Below are positions 2,307 to 31,459 of a stretch of 64,000 bases of DNA, piece by piece. Origin of the DNA: Mesostigma viride (taxonomy: Eukaryota; Streptophyta; Mesostigmatophyceae; Mesostigmatales; Mesostigmataceae); the NCBI GenBank assembly GCA_009746045.1, contig RPFO01000076.1, positions 3,574,920 through 3,638,919 of the forward strand, in the 5' to 3' direction. How positions within the stretch are numbered: position 1 is the stretch's first letter; each line of letters starts with the position of its first letter. The notes beneath the pieces are model-generated. The model searched no databases and had not been told where the DNA came from. It worked only from the letters and a program-made list of their open reading frames with translations. The translations under genes were made by a program, and so were the position numbers.

Positions 2307-2312
2307 ATGAGT

Positions 2313-4783: not shown

Positions 4784-7700
4784 AAGTCGGTGCCGGCCCC
4801 TCCGGGGCTTCATCCTTGATCACCAGCGTAGTAAGCCACTTGTCGAGCTCCTTGCTCATCCTGATGTCGGCGCACATTCCGTCGCTGCGCACGCGTGCTT
4901 CTAGCCGGAGAGCCGGAGCGACGCAGAGTCTGATAGCAATTCACAAGCTCGGGCTGGCGTGACGGTGGCCAATCCTCAACGTTGAGCGTGAAATGCAGGG
5001 GGTCATGCTTATCCCGCTTCCAAATCCGAACGGGAAGAATGCCGTTCCCGGCGAGAAACAGCTCCTTCTCCCGTCCGTTCCGGCCCTCGAAGTTCCCACC
5101 TCTCGAAGTTCTCGTCTAACACGATCGGCCCGGCTTCGCTTACCACCTCAGCCAACCAGAACGGGTGGATGGGATCGTGATCCGTGTCCTTGTCCGATGG
5201 AACTGCCACATAGTCGTGGAGTCTCATCTGCCGGCCATTCGCCTCCCGCTTGTCCTTCAGCTGCTCCCCCCGCGTCACCATGCGAACCGGAGGGTTGGGC
5301 TGTCTCGGTGGCAGCAAACGGACAGTTTTCATCGAGCTTCCTGCATCATTGAACTCGATGAGAAACGACCACTCGCTTCGACATCCCTCAAACCTCCCAG
5401 CCAAACAGGGCGGACAGTAGCAGGAATAGCGCCTAATCATCAAAAGGCCAGGGTCGGACTTGTCCAGTCGCCACCAATGCGCCTTCTTGATGCCAGGCAC
5501 CTCCTCAACCTCCGCGCGTCGGCCGGACTCGACGTCCTGTCATCAAATAGTTAGGACAAAAGAATACCGTTCAAGTTAGCAAAATTGACCAAAAACCAAT
5601 AAAACAGGGTATAGCTGCAGAGAGAGACCCCTTACAAAAAAAAAATTAACGACAAGACATCAAGTGATCAAAATTCGACACAGGGTATAGCTGCAGAGAG
5701 ACCCCATTCGAATCATAATAACAACGTACGACAAGATATCAAGTGATCGAAATTCGACACAGGGTATAGCTGCAGAGAGACCCCATTCGAATCATAATAA
5801 CAACGTACGACAAGATATCAAGTGATCGAAATTCGACACAGGGTATAGCTGCAGAGAGACCCCTTCATACCGATAGAACAAGCGAAATTTCATACCTAAA
5901 AGAAAAGCAACCCATGGACAGTATATAGGGTCTCTCTGCAGAGATACCTTTATTGGGTTTGAATTTTTATAGAACAGCGGCAGTTGACGTCTTAAAACCT
6001 GAAATAACACAAAATTCCGTACCGGGGGTAAAAGGAAGAAGTGGCGAGTGACGTTCTCGGCCCGCGCGCGGGCCGACTCCCTGCTCGATGTCTTGCCGCC
6101 CTGCCAGTTCTGGTTCAAGTAGGCGACTAGCTGGTGGGTCTCAAGTATGTGCTGGTTTTCGGGAATCCTCTGCATTTCCCTCAAGACGCACTTGCACTTC
6201 GCTCCTTGACCATCCACCTCCCCCTTCCCATGCTGCTCCCCCATGTAGTGGAACTCAAAGGCCTGCAGGTCGGGATCCCCCATGAGCAGACCGTTAATCT
6301 GGTTAATCACGTACCTGGACTTAAACTGCACCGCGCAGTTGTCCGAGCACATGTACAGGTTTCGCACCTCTACCCCTACTTCTACCCGCAGGGTTTCCAG
6401 AATCTTGCGAAGAGCGTATACGAGTGCGCGCTCGCCCCGCTTGATACTGGAATCCCCCAGGAAAAAGAAGACGCGCTTTTCCAGCTCGCCGTTGAGCCGA
6501 TAACGCACGATCATGGGCATCAGGATGTGGCTGCGCTTGTGGAAGTACTGCGACTGCAGTTGGACGTAGCTGCTGTTCTCGTAGTTCTCGGCCCAGTCGC
6601 CGTGCACGAGCACGTCCCCCTCTCTCAGATTCTTCTCCCGATCCTTGATTGTATCCGCCTGCGACCAGGCCGTAAAGCAGTGCACGGTGAACTTGTCCCA
6701 CCTCTTAAGAATCTCGTCCCGCAGCTCAGCTGGGGTGGACCTCATTTGGACTTGCTCGGGCCGCTTCACCTTCTTCGCCGCCCTGCCATCGGTCTCGCCC
6801 TGTTTCGCAAAGGTCCGCAGACAGTTTCGATTTGCAATAAAATCGCATTTCGATCAGATAACTGCAACTCACAAAGGGTCTCGCTGCAGCTATAGGTCAC
6901 AAAAAAAAAAGTCAACAACATTTAACGGAGAAATAAAATCGAAACCTACTCACCCTCACCCCTCGGGTCACAGTCTGCTCCACCATCTCGAACTTGAACC
7001 AATTCAGAATCTCCGTGGAATTCTTGTCCCGATCACACTGCACCCAGTTATGGATGCCGCATGATTCCTCAGGACAGAACCCCTCCACACACGCCATCTT
7101 CAGTATGCGGTGAACCCTCTCCGTCCTCGGCACCCCATCTTCGTCCTCCACCAGCCTCTCAGAAATGTCGAGGTCTTCCAGGTCCCGTCCCCGCCATTCA
7201 TCTTCCCCCTCCCCTCTCTTCCATCCCCCCGCCCATTCCGCCCCCTTCACGCAGCCCGTTATCCCTGCCGTCAGTCTCGGCGGACACCGGGCAGTGAAAG
7301 TGCTTGATCCAGTCCGTCGAGTGAATGGCTTTCCACATTCCGCAAGTACCGTCCGGCTCTGTACTTGGAGCATCCCGCACACTCCGCGCCACACTTGCAG
7401 TTCTTGCCGTGGTTCGCATTGCAGTGCTTGGTCCACGCCCCCATGGCCGACTGCATGGTGACGTGCTTCTCACACGCGCACAGGTTCCTCTCCTTCCACT
7501 TGCCCTTGATGCAATCGGGCGCGTATTTGCAGAAGGTCGTGTAGCCCACGTGAATGCCCACGTCCTTATCATACTGGTCACTCCTTTTGTTCCAGTACGC
7601 ATGCTTTTCGAGAAAGTGATTGTACATGTCCTCCTTGGAGGTCATGTAATAGCGCGCTCCCTCAACGGCGACGAGCACCCCGCGATTGCCACGACCCTCC

Positions 7701-8874
7701 CTGCTGTAAGTGCGCTTGACATCCTTCATCTGGGAGGAGGCGCGCGACTCATCATCGTGCATCCACGCGTCCACTATCGCGTCAATCACGAATTGCGGCA
7801 AAGGGCGCCCCTTGCGAGCCTGCGCGTGTCTGAGGTAGTCCAACTTCTGCTGCCTTCGTATCGCGCGAATTCCGCGAATCTTCTTGGCGTCCATCCCCGT
7901 CAGGTTCTCCAACTCCGCGGCCGAAAACTCCTTCTCCAAGTCGTCACCACAGTAAAGCGTGGACATCAGCACCATCCTGACGTCTCTGTCTGCGTCGCTT
8001 TTGGTCAGACCATCAAAAAAGCCGTTAATCCGAGCCACCCAGAACCTGTTCAGTTCTGCCATCCGCTCCTGATTGTAAAGCTTTTTCGCCTCCTCATGAT
8101 ACAGCCCGTGACCTAGTTCAGCGGCCCTAGAGTTAAAGCCAGCAATCATCTGGTCGAAAGCCGGCCCCCGCCCCTCGGGTTTTGTCATCGCCTGAGCCGC
8201 TTCAAACGCCTGGTCAGCGAAATATTCCCCAATAACCCTCTTTTTTTTGTATTCTCCCGGCCGCTTGACTTCCTTGGCTTCAGGCTGCGCTGGATTCTGG
8301 TTCTCATCTCCGAAAACCCTTTTTGCGCCAGTTGACTGCTTCGTCCCGGTGTTCAACTTAATTGCACTGAATCCTGGACGACCGGACGCAAGGGCGAAAA
8401 CTCCCACCCGTTCGCGTGCTGCATGCCATCACGACCGGCATAACGAAATCCATGCAAATCGAGTATCGTTGGGAAAAGCGACAATTACAGACCAAGTTCG
8501 AAAGTGTATCATTTTTTACCACGATTGGGGTCTAGCTGCAGCTAGACCCTTAGAGGGGCTTTTTCCGTTAGACGAAAAGATTACCTGATGTGGTGAACTT
8601 AGCATACCCCAACCAAGATTGGGGTCTCGCTGCAGCTAGACCCTTCATTGCGGTGTGCGATTGATAAATCACAGACTTCTGATTCATTAATTTTATAGTA
8701 ACCATAAAGAGGGTCCAGCTGCAGCGAGACCCTTGAATTTAAGCTATTGCTTGTGGTTAGAAATGGTCTAGCTGCAGAGAGACCCCAATAAGGACGAAAA
8801 GATTTCAGGTTTTCCTTACCTTTGCGGCTCATTCTCTTATTAGTAGTTCTCCCAGGACACTCAGATACCTGCAT
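4784..8874 (-). CDS. Multi-exon transposase-like gene (DDE-type candidate)
   Basis: Proposed exons, in order of translation, are 8820-8874 (ATG start), about 7300-8418, about 6954-7200, 6023-6799 and 4784-5536. The first junction is phase-consistent: CGC AAA G joins CA CGC GAA across a GT-AG intron. The protein has a basic N-terminus, a Cys/His cluster (CKCGAECAGC), a catalytic-like core and a C-terminal Cys-rich part (CYCPPCLAGRFEGC) followed by a chromo- or Tudor-like stretch (PIHPFWLAEVV). GDWAENYE, SDNCAVQFK and HGKGEVDG resemble an uncharacterised family of eukaryotic transposon proteins, where such acidic residues are presumed catalytic; that is inference. The join between exons 2 and 3 is unresolved. 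Exon 5 has a frameshift near 5100, at a small duplication of GAACTTCGAG, so this copy may be dead. Three introns hold ten copies of the 22-bp CTGCAG palindrome. Confidence 0.6.
5605..5950. repeat. Intronic palindromes and 79-bp tandem repeat
   Basis: Five copies of the 22-bp palindrome start at about 5607, 5683, 5762, 5841 and 5928. The middle three are spaced exactly 79 bp apart, inside a tandem repeat that also contains CGACAAGATATCAAGTG. All lie in the intron between the core exon and the last exon (5537-6022). The left half reads GGGTATAGCTGCAG and the right half CTGCAGAGAGACCC, so most are slightly imperfect. Confidence 0.8.
6023..6799 (-). CDS. Core exon of the transposase-like protein
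   Basis: A 777-nt exon with acceptor CAG at 6800-6802 and donor GTACGG at 6022, 259 complete codons. It begins with a Lys/Arg-rich stretch (AAKKVKRP) and then carries the motif series GDWAENYE, SQYFHKRSH, FFFLGDSS, MCSDNCAVQFK and MGEQHGKGEVDGQG. Spaced acidic residues in these blocks fit a DDE-type RNase H-fold nuclease; the assignment of catalytic residues is inference. The exon ends at TRHFFLLPP, which would continue into DVESGRRAE of the last exon. Open throughout with no break. Confidence 0.65.
8528..8785. repeat. Four 22-bp CTGCAG palindromes in intron 1
   Basis: Copies start at about 8528, 8622, 8711 and 8764. The first is perfect: GGGTCTAGCTGCAG followed by its complement. The others mix TCTAG, TCTCG and TCCAG half-sites. 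All fall in the 401-bp intron 8419-8819. Confidence 0.8.
8820..8874 (-). CDS. First exon of the transposase-like gene
   Basis: Short exon with ATG at 8874 and GT donor at 8819. It encodes about 18 residues (MQVSECPG, then a basic MSRK end) and ends in phase 1. The acceptor of the next exon (GCATGCAG, exon start 8418) restores the frame of the long second exon. I chose this start because the next exon has no convincing ATG at its open left edge and the splice phase fits. Confidence 0.5.
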
Positions 8875-10030
8875 GGCGGGAATATCAAAAATAACACAGT
8901 GGCATTGATAAAATGGTTATCAGAAAATATATATTCATTGAGAATGATAGATTACGGAGGTGAGATAGGCATGCAACATAAGGAAAAACCCGAGAACTGG
9001 GAGAATAACCCTGAAGAAATTAATAGTAATCTGACACAGACATCCAAGGATCACGCCAGCGGCACAAGGTACAACTAACTATACATCACAAAACTACACG
9101 CAGCAACAGCGCTGCCGGCCCACCATGCAGGCCTGGAAGGAATCTAGACCGCATGGGTCGCGACAAAGTCGGCCCGGGTGCGGCGGAATAACACATCAGC
9201 CACGGTGCGAGTGAGGGCGAGTGACAGACGCTGCCGCCAATACGAGGACCACGTGCGGGCCGACCACGGGGCGGTCTGACCCTCGAGGTCGAGGCGGTCT
9301 TCACGGCGCTGGCAGCATGCACTCGTGGAAAAACTCCGCTGTCCTTACTAATATATTTTGCAAAAGATTTTATAATAGATTGTGAATAGCATGGATTAAT
9401 TTCCACATACTTAAATAATATGGTATGTTAAAGTATATAGAATCATTATTTAGGAAATCATGTACAAGAAAAAGTGGTATACATTGTTATTATTTTATAG
9501 TTCGGCAATCTATAATAGTAAGACATACCGGATGGCAGGTTTATCAGCGGCCTCCAGGGCTGTAGCGTCTCGCTGCAGCGTGACCGTTTGGTGCTATGAC
9601 TGATTTCAGTATATGTGCAGAAAAAAAATTTATCACCATGACCACACCAGGAATCGAACCCAGAACCTCATTGTACATTTCTGCATGGTAACGATGTCAA
9701 CCAAACATCCGAATGTTCCGCGGGGTAAATGGGCTGGAGGTCGTCTCTTTAATTTTATACCTGCGGCCACAAGCACGGGCGACGGCATATTATTGGATGT
9801 CGTCCAATCCCCTAGCTTGGTTCCAAAAAATGGGATCGAGCTTTTGCACCAGCGCCGCGCTTCCAGTTTTCAGTTCCGTGGGGAGGAACGAGGATGCCAC
9901 TTTTCCAATTTTTTCAATACCGTTCAGCCCTGTGACGCCGCGTCCGGTTTGCGAATTGCGACCGTCCCATTGCCCATCAAAAAAGAAGCGCAGCCGCAGA
10001 GAGACCCCATAGCTGAAAGAGGGAGAGCTG
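8875..10030. other. Unassigned region with decayed palindromes
   Basis: No credible gene. It holds two degenerate copies of the 22-bp palindrome (about 9566 and 9987) and a tRNA-like segment at 9640-9720. It may be the promoter side or a lost part of the large element. Confidence 0.4.
9640..9720 (-). other. tRNA-like segment, possible SINE remnant
   Basis: On the minus strand it contains GGTTCGATTCCTGG, a near-consensus B box of a tRNA T arm, preceded by GGTTTGGTTGACATCG. I cannot fold a full cloverleaf with paired acceptor arms, so I do not call a functional tRNA. Confidence 0.35.
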
Positions 10031-10035
10031 CCACC

Positions 10036-10133
10036 TGCATGACGATACCTGCATAACGATACCTGCATAACGATACCTGCATAACGATACCTGCATAACG
10101 ATACCTGCATAACGATACCCCTGCATAACGAAA
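10036..10133. repeat. 14-bp tandem repeat
   Basis: About six and a half units of CGATACCTGCATAA. The same motif, in one to two units, recurs at 11561-11582. Confidence 0.85.
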
Positions 10134-10146
10134 GGAAATCGGTCTT

Positions 10147-10223
10147 CCGCATAAAGAAAAAAGGTGAGCTTTTGCCGCATCGTGGATGGTAGGCTAACAA
10201 AATTTGTTCTATCAAAACGGCAA
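10147..10223. repeat. Direct repeat partner of 11607-11682
   Basis: About 76 bp, including TCTATCAAAACGGC and CGTGGATGGTAGGCT, is repeated at 11607-11682 with small differences. The pair brackets the nested palindrome and suggests a local duplication. The right copy abuts the start of the minisatellite. Confidence 0.7.
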
Positions 10224-10361
10224 CTAAACAGCGCATCCACGCCGACGACACAGTTAGCCAGCTGGGCGACGACTATGTCTTTGTTGCCATCGCAAGAAAC
10301 TCTTTATGTTGCAGCAAGAGTGATAAATCTGTCTGGCTTCGGCTTCTTGTCGTTGCTAGAG

Positions 10362-11245
10362 TTAGGTGAAATAGTGCCGGAACGTTTTTGCCGTTGGGGC
10401 AAATCGGGCCGGAACACTATTTTGCCCGGATTCACCACTTCCGAGCACCCAAGTGAATTCGGCCGAATTCACTTGGGTGCTCGGAAGTGGTGAATCCGGG
10501 CAAAATAGTGTTCCGGCCCGATTTGCCCCAACGGCAAAAACGTTCCGGCACTATTTCACCTAACTAAAACCTGGCCCCGTGGAGGGGGAGTCGAATAGAC
10601 CTGGAGACAACCGCCTGGGCTACTGCACGCAAATGATATTGCGCCGGAACTGTCTCTGGCAGGTTTCGAACCCCTGACCTCCAAGGTGCACAGGTCTTAG
10701 TTAGGTGAAATAGTGCCGGAACGTTTTTGCCGTTGGGGCAAATCGGGCCCGGCGGAACACTATTTTGCCCGGATTCACCACTTCCGAGCACCCAAGTTAA
10801 TTCGGCCGAATTAACTTGGGTGCTCGGAAGTGGTGAATCCGGGCAAAATAGTGTTCCGGCCCGATTTGCCCCAACGGCAAAAAGGTTCCGGCACTATTTA
10901 ACCTAACTAAGACCTGTGCACCTTGGAGGTCAGGGGTTCGAAACCTGCCAGAGACAGTTCCGGCGCAATATCATTTGCGTGCAGTAGCCCAGGCGGTTGT
11001 CTCCAGGTCTATTCGACTCCCCCTCCACGGGGCCAGGTTTTAGTTAGGTGAAATAGTGTCGGAACGTTTTTGCCGTTGGGGCAAATCGGGCCGGAACACT
11101 ATTTTGCCCGGATTCACCACTTCCGAGCACCCAAGTTAATTCGGCCGAATTAACTTGGGTGCTCGGAAGTGGTGAATCCGGGCAAAATAGTGTTCCGGCC
11201 CGATTTGCCCCAACGGCAAAAACGTTCCGGCACTATTTCACCTAA
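10362..11245. repeat. Nested palindrome: three hairpin elements separated by inverted tRNA-like spacers
   Basis: Three near-perfect palindromes of about 200 bp lie at 10362-10563, 10701-10906 and 11044-11245. Each starts TTAGGTGAAATAGTG and is centred on TTCGGCCGAA. They are separated by two spacers of about 137 bp (10564-10700 and 10907-11043) that are reverse complements of each other, so the whole block is one palindrome of about 880 bp. The spacers contain GGGGTTCGAAACC, a B-box-like sequence, and TAGCCCAGGCGG, an A-box-like sequence, so they look tRNA-derived. No coding capacity. Confidence 0.85.
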
Positions 11246-11689
11246 CTGCTAGCTAAACCCTGCACACATCTCGGTAGAGTCAGCTAAGCCGATCCTAATC
11301 CACATCTGGCATCCATCCCTTTAGTCTAGTTGCCATGGAGCGTTTCTTGGTCTCGCACATGTCGATCATGGTGGTGCTAGGCTTTCACTTGGGTCACCCT
11401 TTCCATGTTTGCTATGCCTTTGGTCTGGTTAGGTTATAGGTGTAGATGTGCACATACTGCATTTGCCGAGTTTCTAATCGGTGCTCCTGTTTGATGCTTT
11501 TTTTCCCCTTCATATCGTTTCGACGTTTGCATGCTACCTGCCGGATTATAACATCGGACGTTGCTACCTGCCTGCATAACGATAGTTTGCAAGAAATCTT
11601 CATTTTGCCGAAACACAAAAAAAGGTGATCTTTTGCCGCAACGTGGATGGTAGGCTGACTAAAATTGTTCTATCAAAACGGCGTTTACA
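11246..11689. other. Unassigned region before the minisatellite
   Basis: No gene is supported. It contains the right copy of the direct repeat (11607-11682). Confidence 0.4.
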
Positions 11690-12299
11690 TGTGGGGGGGT
11701 GCTGGCCTGAATAACTAAATGTGGGGGGGTGCTGTCATGAATGAATACATGTGGGGGTGTGCTGCTACGTATAAATGCATGTGCGGGGGGGTGATGGCAT
11801 GAATAATAAATGTGGGGGGGTGCTGCTACGTATCAATACATGTGGTGGGGGTGATGGCATGAATAATTAAATGTGGGGGGGGTGATGGCATGAATAATTA
11901 AATGTGGGCGGGTGCTGGCATGAATAAATGAATGTGGGGGTGTGATGGCATGAATAATTAAATGTGGGGGGGTGCTGCTACGTATAAATACATGTGGGGG
12001 GTTGCTGGCATGAATAAATAAATGTGTGGGGGTGATGCTACGTATAAATACATGTGGAGGGGTGCTGCTACGTATCAATACATGTGGTGGGGGTGATGCT
12101 ACGTATCAATACATGTGTGGGGGGGTGATGGCATGAATAATTTAATGTGGGGGGTGCTGGCGTGAATTAATAAATGTGGGGGGGTGCTGCTACGTATAAA
12201 TACATGTTGGGGGGTGCTGGCATGAATAATTTAACGTGGGAGGTGCTGGCATGAATAAATAAATGTAAGGGGTTGCTGGCATGAATAAATGAAAGTGGG

Positions 12300-15200
12300 G
12301 GGTTGCTGGCATGAATAATTAAATGTGGAGGGGTGCTGCTACGTATACATGCATGTGGGGGGTTGCTGGCATGAATAAATAAATGTGGGGGGGTGCTGGC
12401 ATGAATAATTAAATGTGGGGGGGTGCTGGCATGAATAAATGAATGTGGGGGTGTGATGGCATGAATAATTAAATGTGGGGGGGTGCTGCTACGTATAAAT
12501 ACATGTGGCCGGGGGGGTGATGCTACGTATAAATACATGTTGGGGGGTGCTGGCATGAATAATTAAATGTGGGGGGGTGATGGCATGAATAATTAAATGT
12601 GGGGGGTGCTGGCATGAATAAATGAATGTGGGGGTGTGATGGCATGAATAATTAAATGTGGGGGGGTGCTGCTACGTTAAAATACATGTGGGGGGTTGCT
12701 GGCATGAATAAATAAATGTGGGGGGGTGCTGTCATGAATAATTAAGTGTGGGGGGTTGCTGCTATGTATAAATACATGTGGAGGGGTGCTGCTACGTATC
12801 AATACATGTGGTGGGGGTGATGCTACGTATCAATACATGTGTGGGGGGGGATGGCATGAATACTTTAACGTGGGAGGTGCTGGCATGAATAAATAAATGT
12901 GGGGGGGTGATGGCATGAATAATTAAATGTGGGGGGTGCTGGCATGAATAAATAAATGTGGGGGGGTGATGCTACGTATAAATAAATGTGGGGGGGTGCT
13001 GGCATGAATAATTAAATGTGGGGGGGTGCTGCTACGTATAAATGCATGTGGGGGGTTGCTGGCATGAATGAATGAATGTACGTGGGGGGTTGCTGGCATG
13101 AATAAATATATGTGGGGGGGTGCTGCTACGCATACATGCATGTGGGGGGTTGCTGGCATGAATAAATAAATGTGGGGGGGTGATGGCAGGAATAATTTAA
13201 TGTGGGGGGTGCTGGCATGAATAAATAAATGTGGGGGGGTGATGCTACGTATAAATACATGTGGGGGGTGCTGGCATGAATAATTAAATGTGGGGGGTGC
13301 TGCTACGTATAAATGCATGTGGGGGGTTGCTGGCATGAATAAATGAATGTGGGGGTTGCTGGCATGAATAAATAAATGTGGGGGGTGCTGCTACGTATAC
13401 ATGCATGTGGGGGGTTGCTGGCATGAATAAATGAATGTGGGGGGTGATGGCATGAATATTTAAATGTGGGGGGGTGCTGGCATGAATAAATGAATGTGGG
13501 GGTGTGATGGCATGAATAATTTAACCCCATGTAGGGGGTGCTGCTACGTACAAATACATGTGGGGGGGTGCTGCTACGTAAAAATACATGTGGGGGGTTG
13601 CTGGCATGTTAATAAATGTGGGGGGTTGCTGGCATGAATAAGTAAATGTGGGGGGGTGCTGGCATGAATACATAAATGTGGGGGGTGATGGCATGAATAA
13701 ATAAATGTGGGGGGTTGCTGGCATGAATAAATACATGTGGGGGGGTGATGGCATGAATAATTAAATGTGGGGGGGTGCTGGCATGAATAAATGAATGTGG
13801 GGGGGTGATGGCATGAATAATTAAACGTGGGGGGGTGCTGCTACGTATAAATGCATGTGGGGGGTTGCTGGCATGAATAAATATATGTGGGGGGTGCTGT
13901 CATGAAAAATTAAATGTGGGGGGTGCTGCTACGTATAAATACATGTGGGGGGTGATGCTACGTATCAATACATGTGGGGGTTGCTGTCGTGAATTTAATT
14001 AAATGTGGGGGGTTGCTGGCATGAATAAATAAATGTGGGGGGTTGCTGGCATGAATAAATAAATGTGGGGGGTGATGGCATGAATAATTAAATGTGGGGG
14101 GGTGCTGCTACGTATAAATACATGTGGGGGGGTGCTGGCATGAATAATTAAATATGTGGGGGGGTGCTGGCATGAATAAATAAATGTGGGGGGTGATGCT
14201 ACGTATAAATACATGTGGGGGGTTGCTGGCATGAATAAATAAATGTGGGGGGTTGCTGGCATGAATAAATAAATGTGGGGGGTTGCTGGCATGAATAAAT
14301 AAATGTGTGCGGGTTATGGCATGAATAATTAAATGTGGGGGGGTGCAGGCATGAGTTAGTGGGGGGTGCTGCTACGTATAAATGCATGTGGGGGGTGATG
14401 CTACGTATCAATACATGTGGGGGGTTGCTGGCATGAATAAATAAATGTGGGGGGGTGATCCATGCATGAATAATTAAATATGGGGGGTGATGGCATGAAC
14501 TATTAAATGTGGGGGGTGCTGCTACGTATAAATGCATGTGGGGGGTGCTGGCATGAATAAATAAATGTGGGGGGGGCTGGCATGAATAAATAAATGTGGG
14601 GGTGATGGCATGAATAATTAAATGTGGGGGGTTGCTGGCATGAATAAATAAATGTGGGGGGTGCTGCTACGTATAAATAAATGTTGGGGGGTGCTGGCAT
14701 GAATAATTAAATGTGGGGGGGTGCTGGCATGAATAAATGAATGTGGGGGGAGTGTGCTGTCGTGAATAATCAAATGTGGGGGGGTGCTGGCATAAATAAA
14801 TACATGTGGGGGGGTGATGGCATGAATAAATGAATGTGGGAGGTGCTGCTACGTATAAATGCATGTGGGGGGTTGCTGGCATGAATAAATAAATGTGGGG
14901 GGTGATGGCATGAATAAATAAATGTGGGGGGGTGATGCTACGTATAAATACATGTGGAGGGGTGCTGCTACGTATCAATACCTGTGGTGGGGGTGATGCT
15001 ACGTATCAATACATGTGTGGGGGGGGATGGCATGAATAATTTAACGTGGGAGGTGCTGGCATGAATAAATAAATGTGGGGGGGTGATGGCATGAATAATT
15101 AAATGTGGGGGGTGCTGGCATGAATTAATAAATGTGGGGGGGTGATGCTACGTATAAATGAATGTGGGGGGGTGCTGGCATGAATAATTTAATGTGGGGG

Positions 15201-19876: not shown

Positions 19877-21339
19877 ATGGCATGAATAAATGAATGTGGG
19901 GGTGTGATGGCATGAATAATTAAATGTGGGGGGGTGCTGCTACGTATAAATACATGTGGGGGGGTGCTGCTACGTATAAATACATGTGGGGGGTTGCTGG
20001 CATGAATAAATAAATGTGGGGGGGTGCTGGCATGAATAAATAAATGTGGGGGGTGATGGCATGAATAAATAAATGTGGGGGGTGATGGCATGAATAAATA
20101 AATGTGGGGGGTTGCTGGCATGAATAAATAAATGCGGGGGGGGGGTGATGGCATGAATAAATAAATGTGGGGGGGTGCTGCTACGTATAAATGCATGTGG
20201 GGGGGTGCTGGCATGAATAATTAAATGTGGGGGGTGCTGCTACGTATAAATACATGTGGGGGGGTGATGCTACGTATCAATACATGTGGGGGGTTGCTGG
20301 CATGAATAAATAAATGTTGGGGGTTGCTGGCATGAATAAAAAAATGTGGGGGGTTGCTGGCATGAATAAATAACTGTGGGGGGGTGATGGCATGAATAAT
20401 TGAAAGTGGGGGGGTGATGGCATGAATAAATAAATGTGGGGGGGTGCTGGCACGAATAAATAAATGTGGGGGTTGCTGGCATGAATAAATAAATGTGGGG
20501 GGTGATGCTACGTATCAATACATGTGGGGGGTTGCTGGCATGAATAAATAAATGTGGGGGGTTGCTGGCATGAATAAATAAATGTGGGGGGTGATGGCAT
20601 GAATAAATAAATGTGTGGGGGTGATGGCATGAATAAATAAATGTGGGGGGTGATGGCATGTATTATTAAATGTGGGGGGGTGCTGCTACGTATAAATGCA
20701 TGTGGGGGGTTGCTGGCATGAATAAATAAATGTGGGGGGTTGCTAGCATGAATAAATAAATGTGGGGGGGTGATGGCATGAATAATTAAATGTGGGGGGG
20801 TGATGGCATGAATTATTAAATGTGGGGGGGTGCTGCTACGTATAAATGCATGTGGGGGGTTGCTGGCATGAATAAATAAATGTGGGGGGGTGCTGGCATG
20901 AATAAATAAATGTGGGGGGGTGATGGCATGAATAATTAAATGTGGGGGGATGATGGCATGATATGTGAAATGTGGGGGGTGCTGCTACGTATAAATAAAT
21001 GTTGGGGGGTGCTGGCATGAATAATTAAATGTGTGGGGGGGTGCTGGCATGAATAAATGAATGTGGGGGGGTGCTGTCATGAATAATTAAGTGTGGGGGG
21101 GTGCTGGCATGAATAAATACATGTGGGGGGTGATGGCATGAATAAATAAATGTGGGAGGTGCTGCTACGTATAAATGCATGTGGGGGGTTGTTGGCATGA
21201 ATAAATAAATGTGGGGGGGTGCTGGCATGAATAGTTAAATGTGGGGGGGTGATGGCATGAATTATTAAATGTGGGGGGGTGCTGGCATGAATAAATTTTT
21301 GTTGTGCACTGTTCTTCATTGTTGTGATAGAATTCACTC

Positions 21340-21698
21340 ATGTACGTAAGGGTCTCGCTGCGGGTAGACCCTCGGAATTTTGTTTTTGTATTGACGTAAG
21401 GGTCTCGCTGCAGCGAGACCCCAAGGAATGTCAATTTTTCATGTTTTCATGATGGGGGGGTCTTTCTTTTCTCACCCTTAAAATGATTTTTTTTTTTATC
21501 GACGTTAGGGTCTCGCTGCAGCGAGACCCCTACGAATGTCGACTTTTAATGTTTGCAAGATGGGAGGGGGCTTTCTTCGCTCACACTAAAAATGATTTGT
21601 TTTTGTTTGACGTTAGGGTCTCGCTGCAGCGAGACCCCAAGGAATGTATACTTTTTATGTTTGCATGATGGGAGGTTGCTTTCTTCGCTCACCCTAGA
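21340..21698. repeat. 108-bp tandem array carrying the 22-bp palindrome
   Basis: Palindromes start at 21350 (variant), 21400, 21508 and 21616. The last three are spaced exactly 108 bp apart and are perfect (GGGTCTCGCTGCAG plus complement). Each unit also has AATGATTTGTTTTTG and a CTTTCTTCGCTCAC block. The next unit resumes at 23846 after the inserted DIRS-like element. The array probably lies in an intron or leader of the gene that begins at about 24038. Confidence 0.85.
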
Positions 21699-23845
21699 AA
21701 TCGGATTTCTCTAAAAATAGTTTATTAAACAGAATGCGGGAAAGAAAGGGCCGCCACAACCTTGTGGCTGTACATGCAGAGAGACTTGTTAGACGAATGG
21801 GGACGACTTGTTGTTTACCGGGGAATCCTACTGGCAACTAGCTTTGCCTTTTGTAAGTCAGGCGCCGTTTGTTTGAACGGCCGGCCATGTGTGGAATGCT
21901 GACGGAAGTTGCGTCAAAAAGCTGTAATAAAATCTGATGTAACCAGCACTCACCAATTGATTGGTGTGCTGCTTGGTTGGGTAGTGTGTTCAGGGTTGCA
22001 TTCGAAGAGTACACATGGCCTGACAGCTCAGACGTGTGACAGATGAGCTGGCTGGCTGAATTATTAAATTGTCAGCGTTAGGATATTTCTGGTTTTACCG
22101 TTTTCCATTTTGACGGTAGGCTTGATAAGCATGGTCGGCGGGTTGTGACCCGTAATTGTTTCTTTGAATGTGCTCACTGAAGCAGTATGAGCGGCCTCGC
22201 TGCTATGGCGGCGGGGCTAAAGAAAATTAGGCAAAGACCCCGTCCTTGCCTGCTATGAAGTCGCGGGCTTTGCGACTTCACGGCAGGTAGGGGCGGTTTG
22301 AACGGAACGGAAATTTCGCGTTACCAATGTGCCAAGTGGTTCTGGTTGGCACCTTGCTGGGCAGCGTCTCGGTGGTCATAGAAAGTGGGCTGGGCGCCCC
22401 GCCCCGGCTGCTGGTAATTCCAGCAGCGGAGCCAATCATGTCGACTAAGAAGTCCGCAGCTAATGCGGAAACTGTGCGAAGGTCAATAGATTAATTTGGA
22501 TTCCATGAGACTGCGCTGGTAGTCAGTCAGCGGCCCACAGCCTAGGGCGCTGCATGGCGCTGCCTTCGGCTTGGTGCGCGGCCCTTTTTTGTTATGGGCC
22601 AGCGAGGGATATAAGGGTGACGCGCGGCCGGCTAATTTCTTGCGTTCCGGAAGAAAATATATTTGCAAAATTCCCACAAAAGGAACCGAGTATCGGAAAG
22701 GCGTCTCGGCTGGCAGTGGCAGTGCCTGGCCTTGTTGTCTCTCCCTGCTCAGCACCCGGCAGGTAGCGGTTCAAACCCTGGTGGCGTCGGAATGCGAATT
22801 TTCTGGGTTTTTATCTGGAATAATATTTTGCTGAGGCGGCTCCGCGGATTCGCTAACCTTTTATCGTCGCGCCCCTTAGGGGGTTATTATAGCCTTGTGC
22901 GGGCTGAGTCGCCATGAAGGAGATGTTGCGACACGCCCCACTTTGTGGTCTTTTTATGGAAGCGGCTACCCTCGAGGCTGCCTGGAAGAGGGGGGGGATT
23001 CTTCTTCTTTTCTTTGTTCACTGTTATTGGGGCAACAGTGATCCTATCAAGTTTTGTTTCCTGAACGGCGACAGTGCGGGGGAGGAGGGCAATGGCGCCA
23101 GGGACTGGGGTGGATCGGGGGGCTCTTGCTCCTGCATGCGAGGGAGACGAGATGACTACTTAAACCTGCCTTTGGCAGCCTGGGGCTCTACTCATTGTTT
23201 TCAATCAAATGCTGGTTTTCTTGGGAGCTCAAGTGTCATAATCGGATTTCTCTGAAAATAGTTTATTAAACAGAATGCGGGAAAGAAAGGGCCGCCACAA
23301 CCTTGTGGCTGTACATGCAGAGAGGCTTGTTAGACGAATGGGGACGACTTGTTGTTTACCGGGGAATCCTACTGGCAACTAGCTTTGCCTTTTGTAAGTC
23401 AGGCGCCGTTTGTTTGAACGGCCGGCCATGTGTGGAATGCTGACGGAAGTTGCGTCAAAAAGCTGTAATAAAATCTGATGTAACCAGCACTCACCAATTG
23501 ATTGGTGTGCTGCTTGGTTGGGTAGTGTGTTCAGGGTTGCATTCGAAGAGTACACATGGCCTGACAGCTCAGACGTGTGACAGATGAGCTGGCTGGCTGA
23601 ATTATTAAATTGTCAGCGTTAGGATATTTCTGGTTTTACCGTTTTCCATTTTGACGGTAGGCTTGATAAGCATGGTCGGCGGGTTGTGACCCGTAATTGT
23701 TTCTTCCCACCCATCCCACCCTTGGGGGGCTCTTGCTCCTGCATGCGAGGGAGACGAGATGACTACTTAAACCTGCCTTTGGCAGGGGCTCTACTCATTG
23801 TTTTCAATCAAATGCTGGTTTTCTTGGGAGCTCAAGTGTCATAAT
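21699..23845 (+). mobile_element. Non-autonomous DIRS-like retroelement, family 3
   Basis: Same layout as family 1 with different sequence: A1 21699-22164, internal 22165-23116, B1 23117-23242, A2 23240-23705, C-rich linker 23706-23723 (CCCACCCATCCCACCC), B2 23724-23845. A1 and A2 are 466 bp and nearly identical; B2 lacks 4 bp present in B1. The B1-A2 junction is CATAATCGG, while the outer ends are AAATCGG and CATAATGATC. Insertion into the 108-bp array is precise, with no target duplication beyond a shared AAT. The internal part has a strong hairpin at 22257-22279 (GAAGTCGC stem) and no credible protein. Confidence 0.8.
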
Positions 23846-24037
23846 GATCTGTTTTTGTTTTGACGTGAGGGTCTCGCTGCAGCGAGACGCCAAAGTTTTG
23901 CATTAAAGTAAATGTCCCTTTTAGAATCCATGAAAGGGTCTAGCTGCAGCGAGACCCCTCCCCATCGTTATTCTGCCGGCAATTCAGATTCTGAATGACA
24001 TTTGTGAAACTTGCTTTTTTTGGATTTTGTTCTGCAG

Positions 24038-25216
24038 ATGTCGTCCTCCTATTCCGATTCTGTCAAGGCCACTCCCGTTTCACCCAAGATGACGTCGAAC
24101 ACCTCGCCGGACCGAACGGCAACGGAGGAGTTTCCTCGTTGCAGTTCGGTCCCGTAAATGCTCTGCGAGGTCCCCCCCCCGAGTCCCCCTCGCCCTCCAA
24201 GTCCAACTTGCCCCCCAGCGAGTTGGACAGAATTATACCCCCCAACTCTCTCGCTGCTGCGTCTCGCGCTCCGTCCCGCTCTCCGCCCCGTAAGTCTCCA
24301 TCGCCGCCCCCCAAGTCGGCCGGAGCTACTGCGTCCCGCTCGCCGCCCCGCAAGTCCCCCAAGTCCCCCGCAACTGCGACCCGTTCGCCGAACCGCAAGT
24401 CCCCCTCTCCGCCCAAAGTTCCCCCCGCTACCGCGTCCCGCTCTCCTTCTCGCAAGTCCCCCTCGCCGTCAACCAAGAACCCCGCAACTGCGTCCCGCTC
24501 GCCGTCCCGCTCTCCTTCCCCCAAGTCCCGCTCGCCGCCACCCAAGTCCCCCGCTTCTGCGTCCCGCTCGCCGTCCCCCAAGCATTCCAGTTCTAAGCGT
24601 AAGCCTGCGGCCGAGTGGGTAGAGGAAGACGACCGCACCAAAGAGCTCAGGAAGCTGAGGAAGTCTATCAGTGAGCTTGTTGAGGAGGACGAGCGCGATC
24701 AGACTAACGGGAGGCCTGAAGACCCGGAATCGCCGGTTCGGGAGTCGCGTCGAAGCGGTTGTCCGATTTGTTAGCAATGGCCGCAAGCTTTGCTGACGAA
24801 TACGCGGCTCTCGACAAGAAGGACAAGGAGAAGGAGAAGGCGGAGAGGGAGGCCATCGAGAAGGCGGAGAGGGAGAGGGTGGAGAGGGAGGAGAAGGAGA
24901 GGCTGGAGAAGGCGGAGAGGGAGGAGGAGGAGAGGGAGTACAAGGAGAAAAAGGCTGCCCAGGAGAAGGAGCACAGGATCCTGGTGGCGAAGCAGAAGGA
25001 GGAGGCGAAGAAGAAGACGGAGGCGGCAGCGAAGGAATTCTTGCGGAGGAGGCCGCTCTTTTTTTCAGATGCGACAGGAGAGGATGAAGGCGGAAGAGGC
25101 CGCGAGGAGGAGGAGGAGGCTGCGAGGAAGGAGGAGGAGGCTGCGAAGGCAGTTGAGGGGGAGAAGGACGAGAACGGAAGAAGGGGTTCTTCCGAAGGAT
25201 TTCAGTCGATTATCAG
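24038..25216 (+). CDS. N-terminal exon: SR/PK-rich then Glu/Lys-rich coiled coil
   Basis: Acceptor TTCTGCAG is at 24030-24037. An ATG follows directly (MSSSYSDSVK), but that frame stops after 39 codons and the neighbouring frame takes over near a C9 run at about 24175. The body repeats RSPPRKSPSPP, RSPSRKSPSP and similar, which look like disordered RS-domain repeats of nuclear proteins. After WVEEDDRTKEL a second frame change near 24740 leads into AASFADEYAALDKKD and a highly charged helix rich in Glu, Lys and Arg. Donor GTATGT at 25217. Likely nuclear; function unknown. Confidence 0.45.
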
Positions 25217-25411
25217 GTATGTTTATTAATGTGAGACGTACATTTTTCAGATGGCTTTTGAACGGCGTGTGTGTATCGTAGAAAGGGTGGGATTTTATGT
25301 CATACATTGATCGTAAGGGTCTAGCTGCGGAGAGACGTTGACCTAGGAGTTAAGGTTGTTGACGACGACGACGACGATGTGTGGCCTTTTTTTTACTCTT
25401 GTTGTCTGCAG

Positions 25412-26449
25412 CCCGACACGGTGGCCATTCTGAAACAGTACCTGGCTCAGGCTGAGTCTGAGGCTGGGGTGAGTCGTAAAGCCGAAAAGGGCTTGATCCG
25501 CTTTCTTTCGGCCGAGATAGCGTTTGCAGAGAAGTCCGGTGTCGTCGTGGACCGTCCGGAGTCGGCACACATAATTTGGAAGAACGACCGCCTGGGCCGT
25601 CTTGCATTGTTCGAAGCCACACAGCGAGCCATTCATGGGAAGAGGGTCGTTGGTGACGACATTATGAGGTTTTGAAGATCGCGCAGTCGTGCATCCTTAA
25701 TCTGAAGGAGGATGTCGGACGTTACTTTCCCCGTCGTGCTTTAATATGGTCGACGCTCTTTGATGAGGTTGAAAAGTTCGAGGTCCACATTGGCTTCACA
25801 TGCATCGAGGCTTCCTATATGGAAACCTTGAAAACCACTGCGTTGCATCAGCTCTTTAAACTCATGACTGGAGATATGAGAGCGGATTCGAGGGCTTCAC
25901 TGTCGGAAGATGAAGTGTTTGATATTGTCAGGCAAGGATTTGTTGACACGTCCAACAGTGACTTTATCGTAATTGTGCCGGGAAGAATGAATGACGTAGG
26001 AGGATTGGAGGAGCGCGCACATGAAGTGATCGCGCATTTGGACATGGCAAGAGACCACTTACTGCAATCTTTTGTTAAGTGGCGGACTGACTTTCTTGTC
26101 AGCCCGGACGCCAGCCTTTCGCGGGAAGCGGTCGCTTTCTTTTTGGATTGGGCTGGACAGGTGATCCAAAGTTTCCGGCACCGGGAGGACTTCCATGTTA
26201 TTCAGACATATAAGCCACCGGGAAGTCGTCCAGGAATGGTTGGATCAAATCTCGTTGGTTGATTGTCTCCAGAGTATCCGAACCAAGACAGACACGGAGT
26301 GGTCTGATTTAGAGGCGGGAGGCCATTGGCAGTCCCTCGAGTTGTTCTTCGAGGCGGAATTGAGGCGGCAACTGGAAAAGGAGAGAGCCCATCAAGTGCC
26401 GATATGGCCTTTGGGGAAGATTTTGAGGAGGTGGAAGTTCTACGTTTCG
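25412..26449 (+). CDS. Second large exon, unknown globular region
   Basis: Begins after TGTCTGCAG with PDTVAILKQYLAQAE and includes ESAHIIWKNDRLG, a pattern with regular helices and conserved-looking aromatic residues. Frame breaks near 25665 (VVGDDIM to EVLKIAQSC) and 26200 (HREDFHV to HREVVQEWLDQ). It ends with LRRWKFYVS at donor GTACGT. No family recognised. Confidence 0.4.
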
Positions 26450-27163
26450 GTACGTTAACTTGCCGATATCGTTTATCGATTTGGGTTGTTTCCATTCCCT
26501 GAATAGGGCTCTATATGCTGACCAACCTTCATGGTTTGTCCTGTCATATCATGCAGGGGGGCTCCATGCCAGGGGACGTATCGGAGGATTTACCGAATTT
26601 GTCAGACTTGGTTGATAAGGTGGGTGCTTGTCCGTCGAGTTTCCACGAGCATCTTACATGGGGTCTAGCTGCAGGTAGACCCTCACCCTTTTATTGAGAC
26701 TGACATGTTCGGCTAATTTCAACGGTGCCCCCAACCAATCTGTTGTCTTTTTTCAGGGGGCGGCTGCGGCGATGGCTGTTGACAGTGCTGGTATTTGGTC
26801 TGGACTCGAGATGGAAATGGTAAGCATTAAACGATATCCGGATGTCTGCATTTCGCCTGAAGTTTTAGTGAGCGCATTATGCGAAATATACAAATGTCGA
26901 CTAATTTTGATTTCCAATGAGCTGTCGTATTCGGTGTTGACAGGGGGGGGTTTGGCCTCAGCAGGCGCTGCCGGAGAGGAAGAAAACGCTGGAGGAGATG
27001 AGGATGGGGGAGACGCTGAGGGAGAAGTGGCTGTGCAGGTACGTTCATCCGCCGCGAGTTCGTGTGATTTTTTTCGTGCTGAGGGGTATCTCCGCAGAGA
27101 GACGATGGTGCAACAATCGAACTGAGGTCAAGTCCCTTCTTGTTCGTTTTTTTTTTCATGCAG

Positions 27164-29052
27164 GCGGGGGCTGTCGCTGGGGGTACTGCGGGGGGGAAGC
27201 CCGAAGTCATTGACTGAGCAAAGGGAAAAGCTGGATTCCCGCAAGAAGGTTGCGAAGGATCATATTATTGCTGTTGGCCTGATCATGCTTAAGTCTCCGC
27301 CCGATGGCGTCGATTCGGAGGGACCTGCGGGGTCCGAGTTTCGCAAGTACCTGACACGACTTGAGGCGGAAGTCGATGCCGATTTCGATACGGAGGTGTT
27401 GGGTGCCGCTACCTTTAAGAGTGAATTGGCATATGAATTTGTAAATCTGGTGAAGTCGAAAGCCACCAAGAATTTCAAGTGGCAGCCTAAGGAGTACTCA
27501 GAGGCAAAGGTTGACAAGATCGAGAAATTCATGAAGGCTGATTTTCGTCGTCGGGCCGCTGAGGGAAAAAGGGCGCTGAATGCGGTGGCAAAGGCCAACA
27601 GTAAGAAGAACGCGGAGGCGAAGGCGGCGGAGAAGGAGGCGAAGAAGGCGGAGAAGGAGAAGGCTAAGGAGGCCAAGAAGCAGCAGAAAACTGGACAGGT
27701 ACGATTGTTGTGAAAATTTAGACCTCTCGCTGCGGGTAGACGCTGACTGGCTGCGGGACTTGGTGTTTAGTGTCAGTAAGGTATTATTCCAACAGAACTT
27801 TGTTCGTCCCTGAACAGGATGTCGTGGTCGGCCTAAATATTACTGACTTGAGCAAATCCTGCGGTCCTTTTCGATTTTTTACTTCAGGATGACGGGGGGG
27901 ACGAAGACGCCACGGTGGAGAAGAAGTTACCTGGTCATGACGCCGTGTTCGCGCTGGTGAAGGATATGCTCAAGTACTGCTCGAGTAGGCGGATGGCGGA
28001 CGTCGATGACCTGCCAAACTGGCCCGAGTTCTCCCCCTTTCTTGAGCTGCTCCGGTCACTCAACAAGCTTTTTAAGGAGGGGGTGCTCACGAGCAGTGGG
28101 AACCCGGACACCGACCCTATCATTGAAAGCTGGAAGCCTTCGAAAAAGGTCGACTCGAACAAGGAGGTCAGGGACCAGAACATCCGGAAGGCCAATCTCT
28201 CAGGGAAACGCGTTGGATTCGGCCGGCCGATTTTAAGCAGACCGGATGTTTCAGTATGCGGATCCAGACGGTCAACGCGCTTATTTTGCCAGAGGCTTTG
28301 AGGCAGCGGCGTTTAAACCTTGAAACCATTAAGGAGAACGGCCGCATTCTCCTCAATGCGCGGGACAACGCCTTGCACTTCAAGGTTGTTGTCCCGGTCT
28401 GGCAGTTCCCTTTCCAGGCGCTTGCCGAATCTCAACCTGACCTGTTCGACAAGCAAATCTTGTGCATGCCGGATTTCGTCAAGTGGCTGAAGATTCACCA
28501 CGGCGCCAAGATTGACGCGGAGGATGTGGGGTCCAGGTACTTCCGGCCCCTTTCGGATACTGAAGTCGACGTGTGGCTTAACACGGAGTCCACCACCTCT
28601 TTCCTCGCGAGAGGACTTGAGTGGCGTACCTACGCCAGGTGGACGAGGTGGAAGCAGTTTTGCCTCAGGACATCGAGGGCAGTCGGGATGTTTTCAACCT
28701 GCTGTGCAATACTGCGATGAAGTCCTACGATCCGAAATTTTTTGAGGAACGGGTACCGGTACCGTATCTGGTTCTCCGGTACGCGGTGGTGGATGGGAAC
28801 CACTACTTTAAGGGGTTAAAGTCGTTTCTCAGGGGGCCGGATGGCGGGTGGGGAGAGGTTCGGGCAATGATGTGCGAGGGTGGGGCGGAGTCCAATTTCG
28901 CAAAGACTCCTAAGGAGGCGGAGCACGCATTCCAGGACCTGTTGCGGAAATTCCGTGGTGGTTACATGGGTACGAATGTCATTCTTCTCAAGGGTGGCGA
29001 CCTGCTCCCGTCGTGGAGTGAGCAGCGAAATCTACCTAAGGCAAAAGAAGAT
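27164..29052 (+). CDS. Middle exons, unknown (two exons with a 189-bp intron)
   Basis: The first exon (27164-27698) continues REKWLC from the preceding small exon into RRGLSLGV, then SRKKVAKDHIIAVGL and a long Lys/Ala/Glu tail. The second (27888-29052) starts DDGGDEDATVEKK and contains LPNWPEFSPFLELL, FKVVVPVWQFPFQAL, MPDFVKWLKIHHG and FEERVPVPYLVLRY. Breaks lie near 28230 and 28620. I see no catalytic motif I can name. Confidence 0.4.
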
Positions 29053-29307
29053 GTAAGCTATCTATTTTGGCAGGGTCTAGCTGCGGGTAGACCCTCGGAA
29101 TTTTCGTGGTTGTTTTTTGTGTGCGCTTCAAGTTTTTTGCGAGGGTCTCGCTGCAGCTAGACCCTCTCCTTTTTTTTGTTGGAATTTTCGTTGCGTATTG
29201 TCGGCCGTTTCTTTTTCGAATTTTGTTAGGGTCTATCCGCAGCTATACCCCTCGCCTTTTATGACTGAGTTTTGTCGTTGCTCGCTCGATGTTAATTGAT
29301 GTCGCAG

Positions 29308-31362
29308 GCGGTGCTGACCGGCAAGCTGGAGAAGCTGTTCGACATCGCCAAGGGGGCGAATTCGGAGGACTTAGCCGTGGCGGATCGTACGCTGGGCCAG
29401 GCGTTGCTTGACGTGTGGAACTACAACAAGCTATATCTATACGGCAAAGTCACGCGTGGGAAGGGCCACTATATTGCGGATGGCCACTATACCAATCTGC
29501 TCACGTACATCCTCCCGGCTATGCGGCAAGCGGGGGGAAGGGAAGGGAATGTGGAGCCGGCAGCGGTGGATGTACACGAGGAGGAAGCAGAAGGAAAGAA
29601 AAAGCCGGCCCACAGCATTGCTTCAGTGCATTCCGCTTACAGTCGCACGCTGGCCAACACGTTTCTCCGTCTGACACAGGAGCAGACTGATGATCCTGCC
29701 TCAACGAAACCCGCGCCTGAGGAGGTGATGATGCAAAGGTGCAAATTCGCGAATGCAGAGGGGGAGAAGAAAGGCCAGAAGGTCTCTTGGACGCTTTCAG
29801 GAACTTGGCCAGCCTTCCTATGATGGACGCCGTGATCGATTGCATCATGAGCTGCCAGGTTGGACCGGAAAAGCTCACCAAGTTGGTGGAGTTCGCCAAG
29901 GATGTGCTGGAGTGCCTGCGGCTGACCATTTGCGCCAGATTCAAGGAGGATGTGACGCTGGAAGCGCAATGCAAGGACGCAAAGGGCAAGGAGTTTGTGG
30001 CGTCTCATATTTTCGAACTCGTCTTCAATCTCCATCCTCTCCTCGGCCGGTCGGCAGGAAGGAGATTGTGGCCAGATACCGGGAATTTTGGGATGTGGCC
30101 GTCATCATAACGAGGAACATCGCCTACCTTCTTAAAGCCAAAAAACACGCCGCACATCTGAGGATTCCGAGAAAGGATCTCATAGTGGCAAGATCGACTT
30201 TCAGGAGATTCTGCTAAAAGAGAGCGAGGACAAGACGGTGGGTTTGGCACTTTTGGCTCCGGAAGCGTTCAGGAAGTACGCTCCAAAAGTTGGATTACTC
30301 GAAGGGGGGTGAAGGAGGCGGCGATGAAGGGGCCGGTGAAGGGGCTGGAGAAGGGAAGGGGAAGGGGAAGGGGAAGGGGAAGGAGACGGAGGCGAAGAAG
30401 GAGGAGGAGGCGAAGGAGGAGGAGGAGTGGGACGTTGTGTATGAGTGGCAGAGTGTGGACTGGGGCCGTCGCCGGGTCTGGTTTTGCTGTCAGGAACTAG
30501 ACGGTGATGATGATGACAAGTCGCTCGTCAAGCAGGTGGCAGGCGAGGTTGCCTCAGCTTCAGCCCGCCCCTTTCCCTTGGGCAGGTCCCTTCCGTGCCT
30601 GAGCCTGCTGAACTTGGCGAACATTTGGGGTGATAAGTGGAGTAACTTTCAGAGAGGGTGGTGGGCGTTCGGTCCTTGCCCGACAGCCTCGGACATTCCC
30701 GAACCGGGCGGGATCTACGATCATGTGCTGAAGGCTTGCGCCCAAGAGTTTTTCTCCAGGTTCGAACCGATGGTGATCGTGTTTGGTACCGAGCCGGAGA
30801 TTAAGGGGTTTCAAGAGATAGTGGAAAGGATCGGTATTGGGAGTGAATTGTGGGAGCGGCCTAGGCTCGGAAGGGCGAAGAAGCGAAAAGCTTCCCACGA
30901 AGCCGGGGGTCCTTCGTCGGCCGTGGTGGCGAGGGATGACCAACAGTTGTTGGAGGGAGGGGATGGAGGGGATGGAGGTCCGGCAGGAGGGTCTACTCGC
31001 GGAGAGACCCCCGTCGAGGTGAGAACGCAGCAGGCCGAACAGATGACGGGGCCTGAAGGTGATGCGGATCCGCCTGCGGCGAAGAAGCCCGCTTCTCAAG
31101 TGACTCGACGGGCAGTCGTGTCACTTGCTGAGGATCATTGATGGAGGTGGGCCTTCCAAGCCTGCCGCGCCTCAGCCCGTTTTTCAGGTTCCGAAGAAGC
31201 AGCTTCGGGTTCCCCCGCCGACTCTGCCCACCCCGCAGCCTCTGCCCATTTCTCAGGTACCGAAGAAGCAGCTTCGGGTTCCCCCGCCGACTCTGCCCAT
31301 TTCTCAGGTACCGAAGAAGCAGCTTCGTAAGCAACTTGTGGCAGTGGCTGATTCGGACGATG

Positions 31363-31459
<97 letters not shown>

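Follow-up and report, generated by a model that had tools for sequence, protein, structure and literature searches.

The locus and its palindromes

The window, a 64-kb stretch of the Mesostigma viride genome (C998:3574920-3638919; 52% GC; genome of 440 Mb in 2243 contigs), contains part of an autonomous-type DNA transposon whose noncoding DNA is rich in 22-bp palindromes centred on CTGCAG. These palindromes are fixed parts of one DNA-transposon family, which is defined by a terminal inverted repeat (TIR) carrying GGGTGGTCCCACGCGGAATGGGGT and by a 4-bp target-site duplication (TSD). The window has 44 copies of the hexamer CTGCAG, many of which, between 5.6 and 29 kb, form the centre of such a palindrome. 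A 22-position scan of the 64 kb finds 26 sites that agree with the consensus at 17 or more of the 22 positions, against a mean of 0 in five first-order Markov shuffles of the window. A previous reading of this DNA from its letters (hereafter the sequence-only reading) had listed palindromes here, and its coordinates are right. Twenty-five of the 26 scored sites lie inside the transposon and one, at 52956, lies outside it. Under a slightly looser rule the element holds 27 sites, of which 10 are strict matches, and three half-sites have a weak partner (6876, 10007 and 31926). The element, its genes and its sites are arranged as follows.

1..32951, no strand: autonomous-type DNA transposon, the part within the window (TIRs and TSD at both ends, copies elsewhere)
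32895..32951, minus strand: right TIR, GGGTGGTCCCACGCGGAATGGGGT... read inward (inverted repeat at both ends; the same 57 bp occur in a miniature inverted-repeat transposable element, MITE)
32952..32955, no strand: right copy of the 4-bp TSD, TGGA (read by eye; left copy at L028:6482-6485)
4790..8830, minus strand: probable DDE-type transposase gene (Cys-rich region and spaced acidic motifs)
24038..32416, plus strand: gene or genes with several exons and no recognised domain (reading frames, copy comparison)
114..135, no strand: degenerate palindrome in noncoding DNA of the element's left part (consensus scan, copy comparison)
4749..4770, no strand: degenerate palindrome just past the minus-strand gene (consensus scan, copy comparison)
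5607..5949, no strand: five palindromes in one intron of the minus-strand gene, of which four sit on a 79-bp tandem repeat (scan, tandem repeats)
6876..6897, no strand: palindrome in a minus-gene intron, one half-site degenerate (scan, gene model)
8528..8785, no strand: four palindromes in the 5′ intron of the minus-strand gene (scan)
9565..9586, no strand: degenerate palindrome between the two genes (scan, gene model)
21350..21637, no strand: four palindromes upstream of the plus-strand gene, three of them on a 108-bp tandem repeat (scan, tandem repeats)
23869..23957, no strand: two palindromes just upstream of the plus-strand gene start (scan)
25317..25338, no strand: palindrome in inferred intron 25216-25410 (scan, gene model)
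26661..26682, no strand: palindrome in inferred intron 26619-26755 (scan, gene model)
27084..27105, no strand: weaker palindrome in inferred intron 27037-27163 (scan, gene model)
27722..27743, no strand: weaker palindrome in inferred intron 27698-27887 (scan, gene model)
29073..29250, no strand: three palindromes in inferred intron 29053-29308 (scan, gene model)
30989..31010, no strand: the sole scored site in an exon-like open frame (scan, gene model)

The minus-strand gene probably encodes a DDE-type transposase, to judge from spaced acidic motifs in one exon and from a region rich in Cys. Its exons run at about 8428-6950, 6805-6023 and 5537-4790. Pfam searches gave no match at E values up to 10 for the middle exon or up to 5 for three longer stretches, a result that a very diverged domain could escape, and a sequence search of the PDB likewise gave no match to the transposase. 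An AlphaFold2 model of the middle exon alone has a mean pLDDT (predicted local distance difference test) of 33. The 261 codons of this exon encode the same residues in the copy C1a and differ by one residue in the copy C58. In viral contigs four stretches fit a peptide pattern of the transposase exon, none of which was confirmed, and the strict symmetric site occurs 0 times.

The plus-strand gene is long, has charged repeats and gives Pfam matches below threshold only. The inferred introns were drawn by eye from GT/AG sites and reading frames, and their ends are accurate to a few bases. For eight of the nine plus-gene exons an open frame exists in one or more of six copies, the window included, with the qualification that such a frame carries little information in the three exons shorter than 100 bp. 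The last large exon (29309-31970) is open in none of the six. The open frame of this exon includes pure trinucleotide runs (TGC, TGA and GAG; 31364-31622), which are shorter in the copies C1a, C25 and C16.

The sequence-only reading had placed all ten palindromes of the minus-strand gene in three introns, and they do fall in three inferred introns (5607, 5683, 5762, 5841 and 5928; 6876; 8528, 8622, 8711 and 8764). It had also assigned sites to at least five introns of the plus-strand gene, and five inferred introns hold one to three each (25317; 26661; 27084; 27722; 29073, 29143 and 29229), while three of the eight inferred introns of this gene are free of sites. Its suggestion that the palindromes are confined to introns goes too far. 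Sites are also found in the intergenic and left parts of the element (114, 4749, 9565, 21350, 21400, 21508, 21616, 23869 and 23936) and one lies in an open reading frame (30989). The exon concerned is open as a whole in no copy, and four aligned copies show a slightly different site at this position.

The distribution is nevertheless far from uniform over exons, introns and intergenic DNA. With sites defined by at least 16 of 18 fixed positions, and with inserts and minisatellite excluded, the exons (10,140 bases) contain one site, the introns (2,328 bases) 13 and the other noncoding DNA of the element (4,500 bases) six, which corresponds to 0.1, 5.6 and 1.3 sites per kb, respectively. The deficit in exons relative to the rest has P = 4e-7 and the excess of introns over other noncoding DNA P = 0.003, both values being optimistic in that tandem units were counted separately. 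The inserts and minisatellite of the window element, 19.4 kb in all, carry 0 scored sites.

A transposon family that carries the sites

The left end of the element lies 3.4 kb to the left of the window (C998:3571485, L028:6486) and its right end at window position 32951. Both ends carry GGGTGGTCCCACGCGGAATGGGGT as inverted repeats, and the mapped ends begin with GGGTGG. Ends were located by the TIR sequence with up to four mismatches. A LINE (long interspersed nuclear element) copy in C1b that lacks the element represents a paralogous empty site, and four more large elements are flanked by the TSDs CGCA (C69), GGAG (C36), TTAG (C1a) and GCCG (C25), all read by eye. Across the family the TSD is 4 bp long and its letters are not fixed.

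A genome-wide search finds the strict pattern of the palindrome 2249 times and a reversed control pattern 0 times, and the left-type TIR 219 times with 0 for its control. Among 50 sites listed of the 2249, 41 were checked in the DNA and all 41 belong to the family, in autonomous-type copies, MITEs (one with an insert, one diverged) and one fragment. The other nine (C2:4449037-4458260) fit an autonomous-type copy by their spacing only. A rough estimate gives about 2177 strict sites from three kinds of element, compared with the 2249 counted. It rests on 34 hand-picked TIR loci, 18 of which were counted as autonomous-type, including four that are diverged, chimeric or truncated. These 34 loci (L037-L070) were picked by hand from listed places by the TIR alone, leaving out known large copies and most short contigs, while six others (L031-L036) were picked because sites were already listed beside the TIR.

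Large copies were compared through DNA from seven other motif-bearing places, namely C1a, C25, C58, C16 (two copies), C1b (part of one), C36 and C69. The first five of these places align to the window until about 32952, mostly at 96-98% identity, with lower values for part of one C16 copy (88%) and for some noncoding stretches (83-95%). At 29 positions compared with up to six copies a site is present in every aligned copy and its imperfections are mostly common to the copies, a few sites in the C16 copies being damaged by small indels. The sole difference in site number between copies is in the array at about 5.6-5.9 kb, which has three units in C1b as against four in the window, C1a, C25 and C58; both C16 copies lack this region. 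Compared with the window, the copies show changes at 46 of 3080 site positions and at 403 of 15914 positions in the 60-bp flanks (P = 0.0003, too optimistic a value for copies that share ancestry).

The MITE of the family is gene-free and about 586 bp long, and its two sites, separated by 226 bp, lie at about 133 and 205 bp from the ends. Ten of the 34 TIR-chosen loci are complete MITEs and all ten have both sites, one site reading CTGCGG for CTGCAG. Nine of them have an exact 4-bp duplication and the tenth is off by one base. Seven further complete MITEs (six viewed beforehand and one beside C1a) agree, so that both sites are present in 17 of 17 overall. The TSD is exact in 15 of 16 complete MITEs and has one mismatch in the remaining one. 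The other 24 loci are ends of larger elements, six of the C36 type, 14 of the autonomous type and four diverged, chimeric or truncated. With an E-value limit of 0.01, similarity between the MITE and the autonomous element is restricted to the two ends (131 bp and 57 bp), the palindromes and short TIR-to-TIR stretches.

The elements C36 and C69 (10.3 and 10.7 kb) align with the window in this comparison only near 32.0-32.4 and 32.7-32.95 kb. Each has 17 strict sites in two facing arrays with a spacing of about 120 bp, and the strict site nearest to an end is 2.1 kb from it (1.8 kb in C1a). No match to three parts of the transposase was found at E 0.001. Two stretches of the plus-gene protein do match, one with 41% identity in 88 aligned residues and the other with 61% in 113, and C36 and C69 are therefore transposase-less and not gene-free. 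Their arrays could sit in introns of the remaining plus gene. Minisatellites lie between the facing arrays, and the diverged plus-gene stretches are near the right end.

The same 22 bp thus recur in unrelated surroundings in a gene-free multi-copy element, and a relative with a widely diverged protein keeps the consensus. No other evidence argues as strongly as these two findings that the palindromes are of importance to the transposon and do not serve as signals for splicing.

Two half-sites

Both halves of the palindrome resemble a single half-site, GGGTCT(A/C)NC(T/C)G, and this explains the symmetry. In a set of 35 sites, 294 of 385 positions agree between the arms, compared with 295.6 when the right arms are shuffled among sites (P = 0.64). 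Each tandem array was entered about once in this set, some of its sites are identical letter for letter, and a few (such as 4749, 8711 and 30989) were taken in the form of other copies. The sequence-only reading had proposed that the half-sites vary in step, with compensating changes. The arms show no such covariation. Independent halves are expected of a site for a dimeric protein and not of a selected hairpin.

Proposed function and rival explanations

That the palindromes are binding sites of a protein encoded by the element itself, the binder being putative, seems fairly probable. The fuller explanation favoured here, that they are two-half-site targets of such a protein with perhaps an anti-silencing or licensing function like that of VANC proteins, is put at somewhat better than an even chance on the pattern of sites and copies. 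Each site would be bound by the element-encoded protein, which would recognise the two halves separately, in the manner of a dimer. Its presence throughout the noncoding parts would keep the element open, or licensed, for transcription and transposition, as VANC does on VANDAL elements, and relatives without genes would have to carry sites to be served in trans. Sites needed along the length of the element would fit only where they do not spoil its proteins, and the palindromes would then look seeded in introns because an element with this need must spare its coding sequence. The plus-strand gene may be the likelier source of the binder, since the transposase-less relatives keep stretches related to it; this is a hint only. 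The anti-silencing or licensing role, an analogy with VANDAL, is tentative and falls clearly short of an even chance. Somewhat more doubtful still is the proposal in its full form, an independently evolved system of sequence-specific licensing or anti-silencing outside the VANDAL group, with a two-half-site operator in introns and intergenic DNA that MITEs and transposase-less relatives carry for the same protein.

Several observations weigh against this explanation. Pfam searches find a DNA-binding domain in neither gene, and the binder is hypothetical. None of the six copies compared has an open frame in every plus-gene exon. Changes between copies in one plus-gene exon number 0 synonymous against 5, 8 and 5 nonsynonymous, and in another exon 2 against 5, so that no purifying selection is seen in a test of little power; three pairs of the 261-codon transposase exon give 0 synonymous and 0, 1 and 1 nonsynonymous changes. 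Other combinations of half-sites around a CTGCAG centre (AC/AC, CT/CT, and CG with CT or AC) occur 0 times in the genome, which points to few contributing families and limits free combining of the halves. The site outside the element (52956-52977, score 17 of 22) is in another repeat that is also nested in the copy C25, and may be due to chance. In the TIR-chosen MITEs 1 of 440 site positions is off consensus, as against 58 of 4940 positions elsewhere once the TIRs are excluded, which is not a significant difference (P = 0.09). A 13-copy set gives 0 of 572 against 79 of 6421 (P = 0.003), but it includes the six copies viewed beforehand and overlaps the TIR-chosen set, and nothing is rested on its figure alone. 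The MITEs appear to stem from a single recent burst, and their sites may descend from one founder. Lastly, copies and tandem units are related, and all P values therefore overstate independence.

Among the alternatives, the palindromes may bind an element-encoded accessory protein that brings the transposon ends together, as TNPA does at the subterminal repeats of CACTA elements. Those repeats are described as cis-determinants of excision and transposition (PMC2613891), and the MITEs, which keep their TIRs and two sites at a short distance from the ends, have a matching layout. This account is nonetheless unlikely, as the strict sites of the large elements are not subterminal in C1a, C36 or C69 and sites run throughout the element, introns included. 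A host transcription factor, borrowed by the transposon to drive its genes from the dyad, would explain the clusters upstream of or near both gene starts (8528-8785 and 21350-23957). Its chances are slim, given that none of the 41 checked sites is in host DNA and that the gene-free MITE keeps its sites. Slightly slimmer are those of neutral hitch-hiking, in which functionless sites inherited from founder copies have spread by descent and tandem duplication. The high identity of autonomous-type copies, the burst-like MITEs, the location of site arrays on tandem repeats and the lack of a significantly lower divergence of sites in the TIR-chosen MITEs all agree with it. On the other hand, the sequences that surround the sites in the MITE and in the autonomous element have nothing in common, exons are depleted of sites, and sites are less diverged than their flanks between large copies. 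The neutral explanation is rated lower because strict sites persist in C36 and C69 at a protein divergence that leaves plus-gene stretches with 41-61% identity.

Two further explanations had been offered by the sequence-only reading. Hairpins that fold in the pre-mRNA and aid the splicing of their introns would account for the ten minus-gene and seven plus-gene sites in inferred introns and for an intron density above that of other noncoding element DNA, and the C36 and C69 arrays might also lie in introns of the plus-gene-like stretches. The arms lack the covariation of a selected stem, however, sites are also found between genes and in MITEs that have no gene to splice, and site-free introns exist in the plus gene, all of which makes a splicing role very improbable. 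Least probable of all is a 22-bp unit that itself inserts anew and is tolerated only in noncoding DNA. The occurrence of the unit in unrelated flanks in the MITE and the autonomous element would suit it, yet none of the 41 checked sites is outside the family, positions and imperfections are common to the copies, which differ only by one tandem unit, small changes and 1-bp indels (some in the C16 copies), and the nested inserts and minisatellite have remained free of scored sites. Binding by the element's own protein, the third idea of that reading, is the best supported of the three, although it is inferred and its binder putative.

Comparison with known systems

The layout of the element is closest to that of VANDAL21 and its protein VANC21. 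In Arabidopsis VANC21 binds a short motif in introns, intergenic DNA and terminal noncoding DNA of its own transposon, and tandem repeats multiply the target motif, in numbers that vary from copy to copy (PMC5735166). Expression of VANC removes methylation (PMC5735166, PMC10398659). The present element likewise has an element-specific motif concentrated in noncoding DNA, and part of its sites are on tandem repeats, with units of 79 and 108 bp in the window and one unit fewer in one copy. It differs in that the motif described for VANC21 comprises nine bases in one orientation (PMC5735166), whereas the site here is a 22-bp dyad, and in having clear TIRs, a 4-bp TSD and a MITE that bears sites. 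No relative of VANC was recognised, in that neither gene has a Pfam match above the cut-off; no direct comparison with VANC was made.

In CACTA (En/Spm) elements TNPA binds subterminal repeats that are needed for excision (PMC2613891). Repeated element-specific motifs kept together with TIRs, and a large intron-bearing element with a second gene beside the transposase, are common to both. In contrast to CACTA, the mapped ends read GGGTGG, the TSD is 4 bp long and the sites of the large elements are internal and palindromic. The MITE fits a CACTA layout while the large elements fit it poorly, and no CACTA transposase domain matched in Pfam at E 5-10. A 4-bp TSD is also found in Sola elements, for which Sola2 examples with AT-rich TSDs are given (PMC3627910), whereas those of the present family vary. 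The transposase matched no Pfam model; no Sola sequence was compared. Kolobok elements have a TTAA TSD (PMC9587614), unlike the TGGA, CGCA, GGAG, TTAG, GCCG and others found here.

Small mobile palindromes, such as the PstI palindromes of Neurospora mitochondria, are GC-rich, centred on CTGCAG and present in many copies. The palindromes of the window differ from them in being fixed parts of a transposon family. A literature search with the letters of the site and the TIR returned only a paper on another subject. Searches on internal palindromes or binding sites in transposons gave no match to the arrangement among the matches listed, which does not prove it unpublished.

Sequence-specific anti-silencing by a transposon has been described for the Arabidopsis VANDAL elements (PMC5735166, PMC10398659). 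If the anti-silencing reading is true, the present family would be a second example, from an unrelated element whose operator is clear. The 586-bp MITE, with little but TIRs and two operators, would then be a compact test of site function and would show whether parasitic MITEs must carry such sites.

In the 17 MITE copies C-to-T changes affect 23 of 1496 CpG positions and 11 of 2703 other C/G positions, and 15 transversions are likewise at CpG positions. The CpG observed/expected ratio of the MITE is 1.69, yet its copies show an excess of change at CpG. CpG methylation is one reading only of this excess. If it is true, silencing would be a real pressure that the sites do not fully prevent.

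Nested and neighbouring repeats

The window element is broken by nested insertions and holds a 9.6-kb minisatellite. The latter (11689-21296) consists of about 320 units of a G-rich 30-bp repeat, is matched in other copies and, in C58, has an orientation opposite to that of its flanks. Two near-identical insertions of about 1.96 kb (344-2305 and 2639-4604) are present in opposite orientation, and the same repeat occurs in the copy C25. A near-perfect foldback at 10360-11247, with 390-nt arms that are 99% complementary and made of smaller palindromes, is missing at this place from the C1a, C25, C58 and C16 copies. A separate retrotransposon, marked by matches to Copia-type gag and Pol_BBD at 35053-45241, lies to the right of the element, and hexamer arrays (ACGCCC and TGCCCC) extend over more than 1 kb at 36869-38454.

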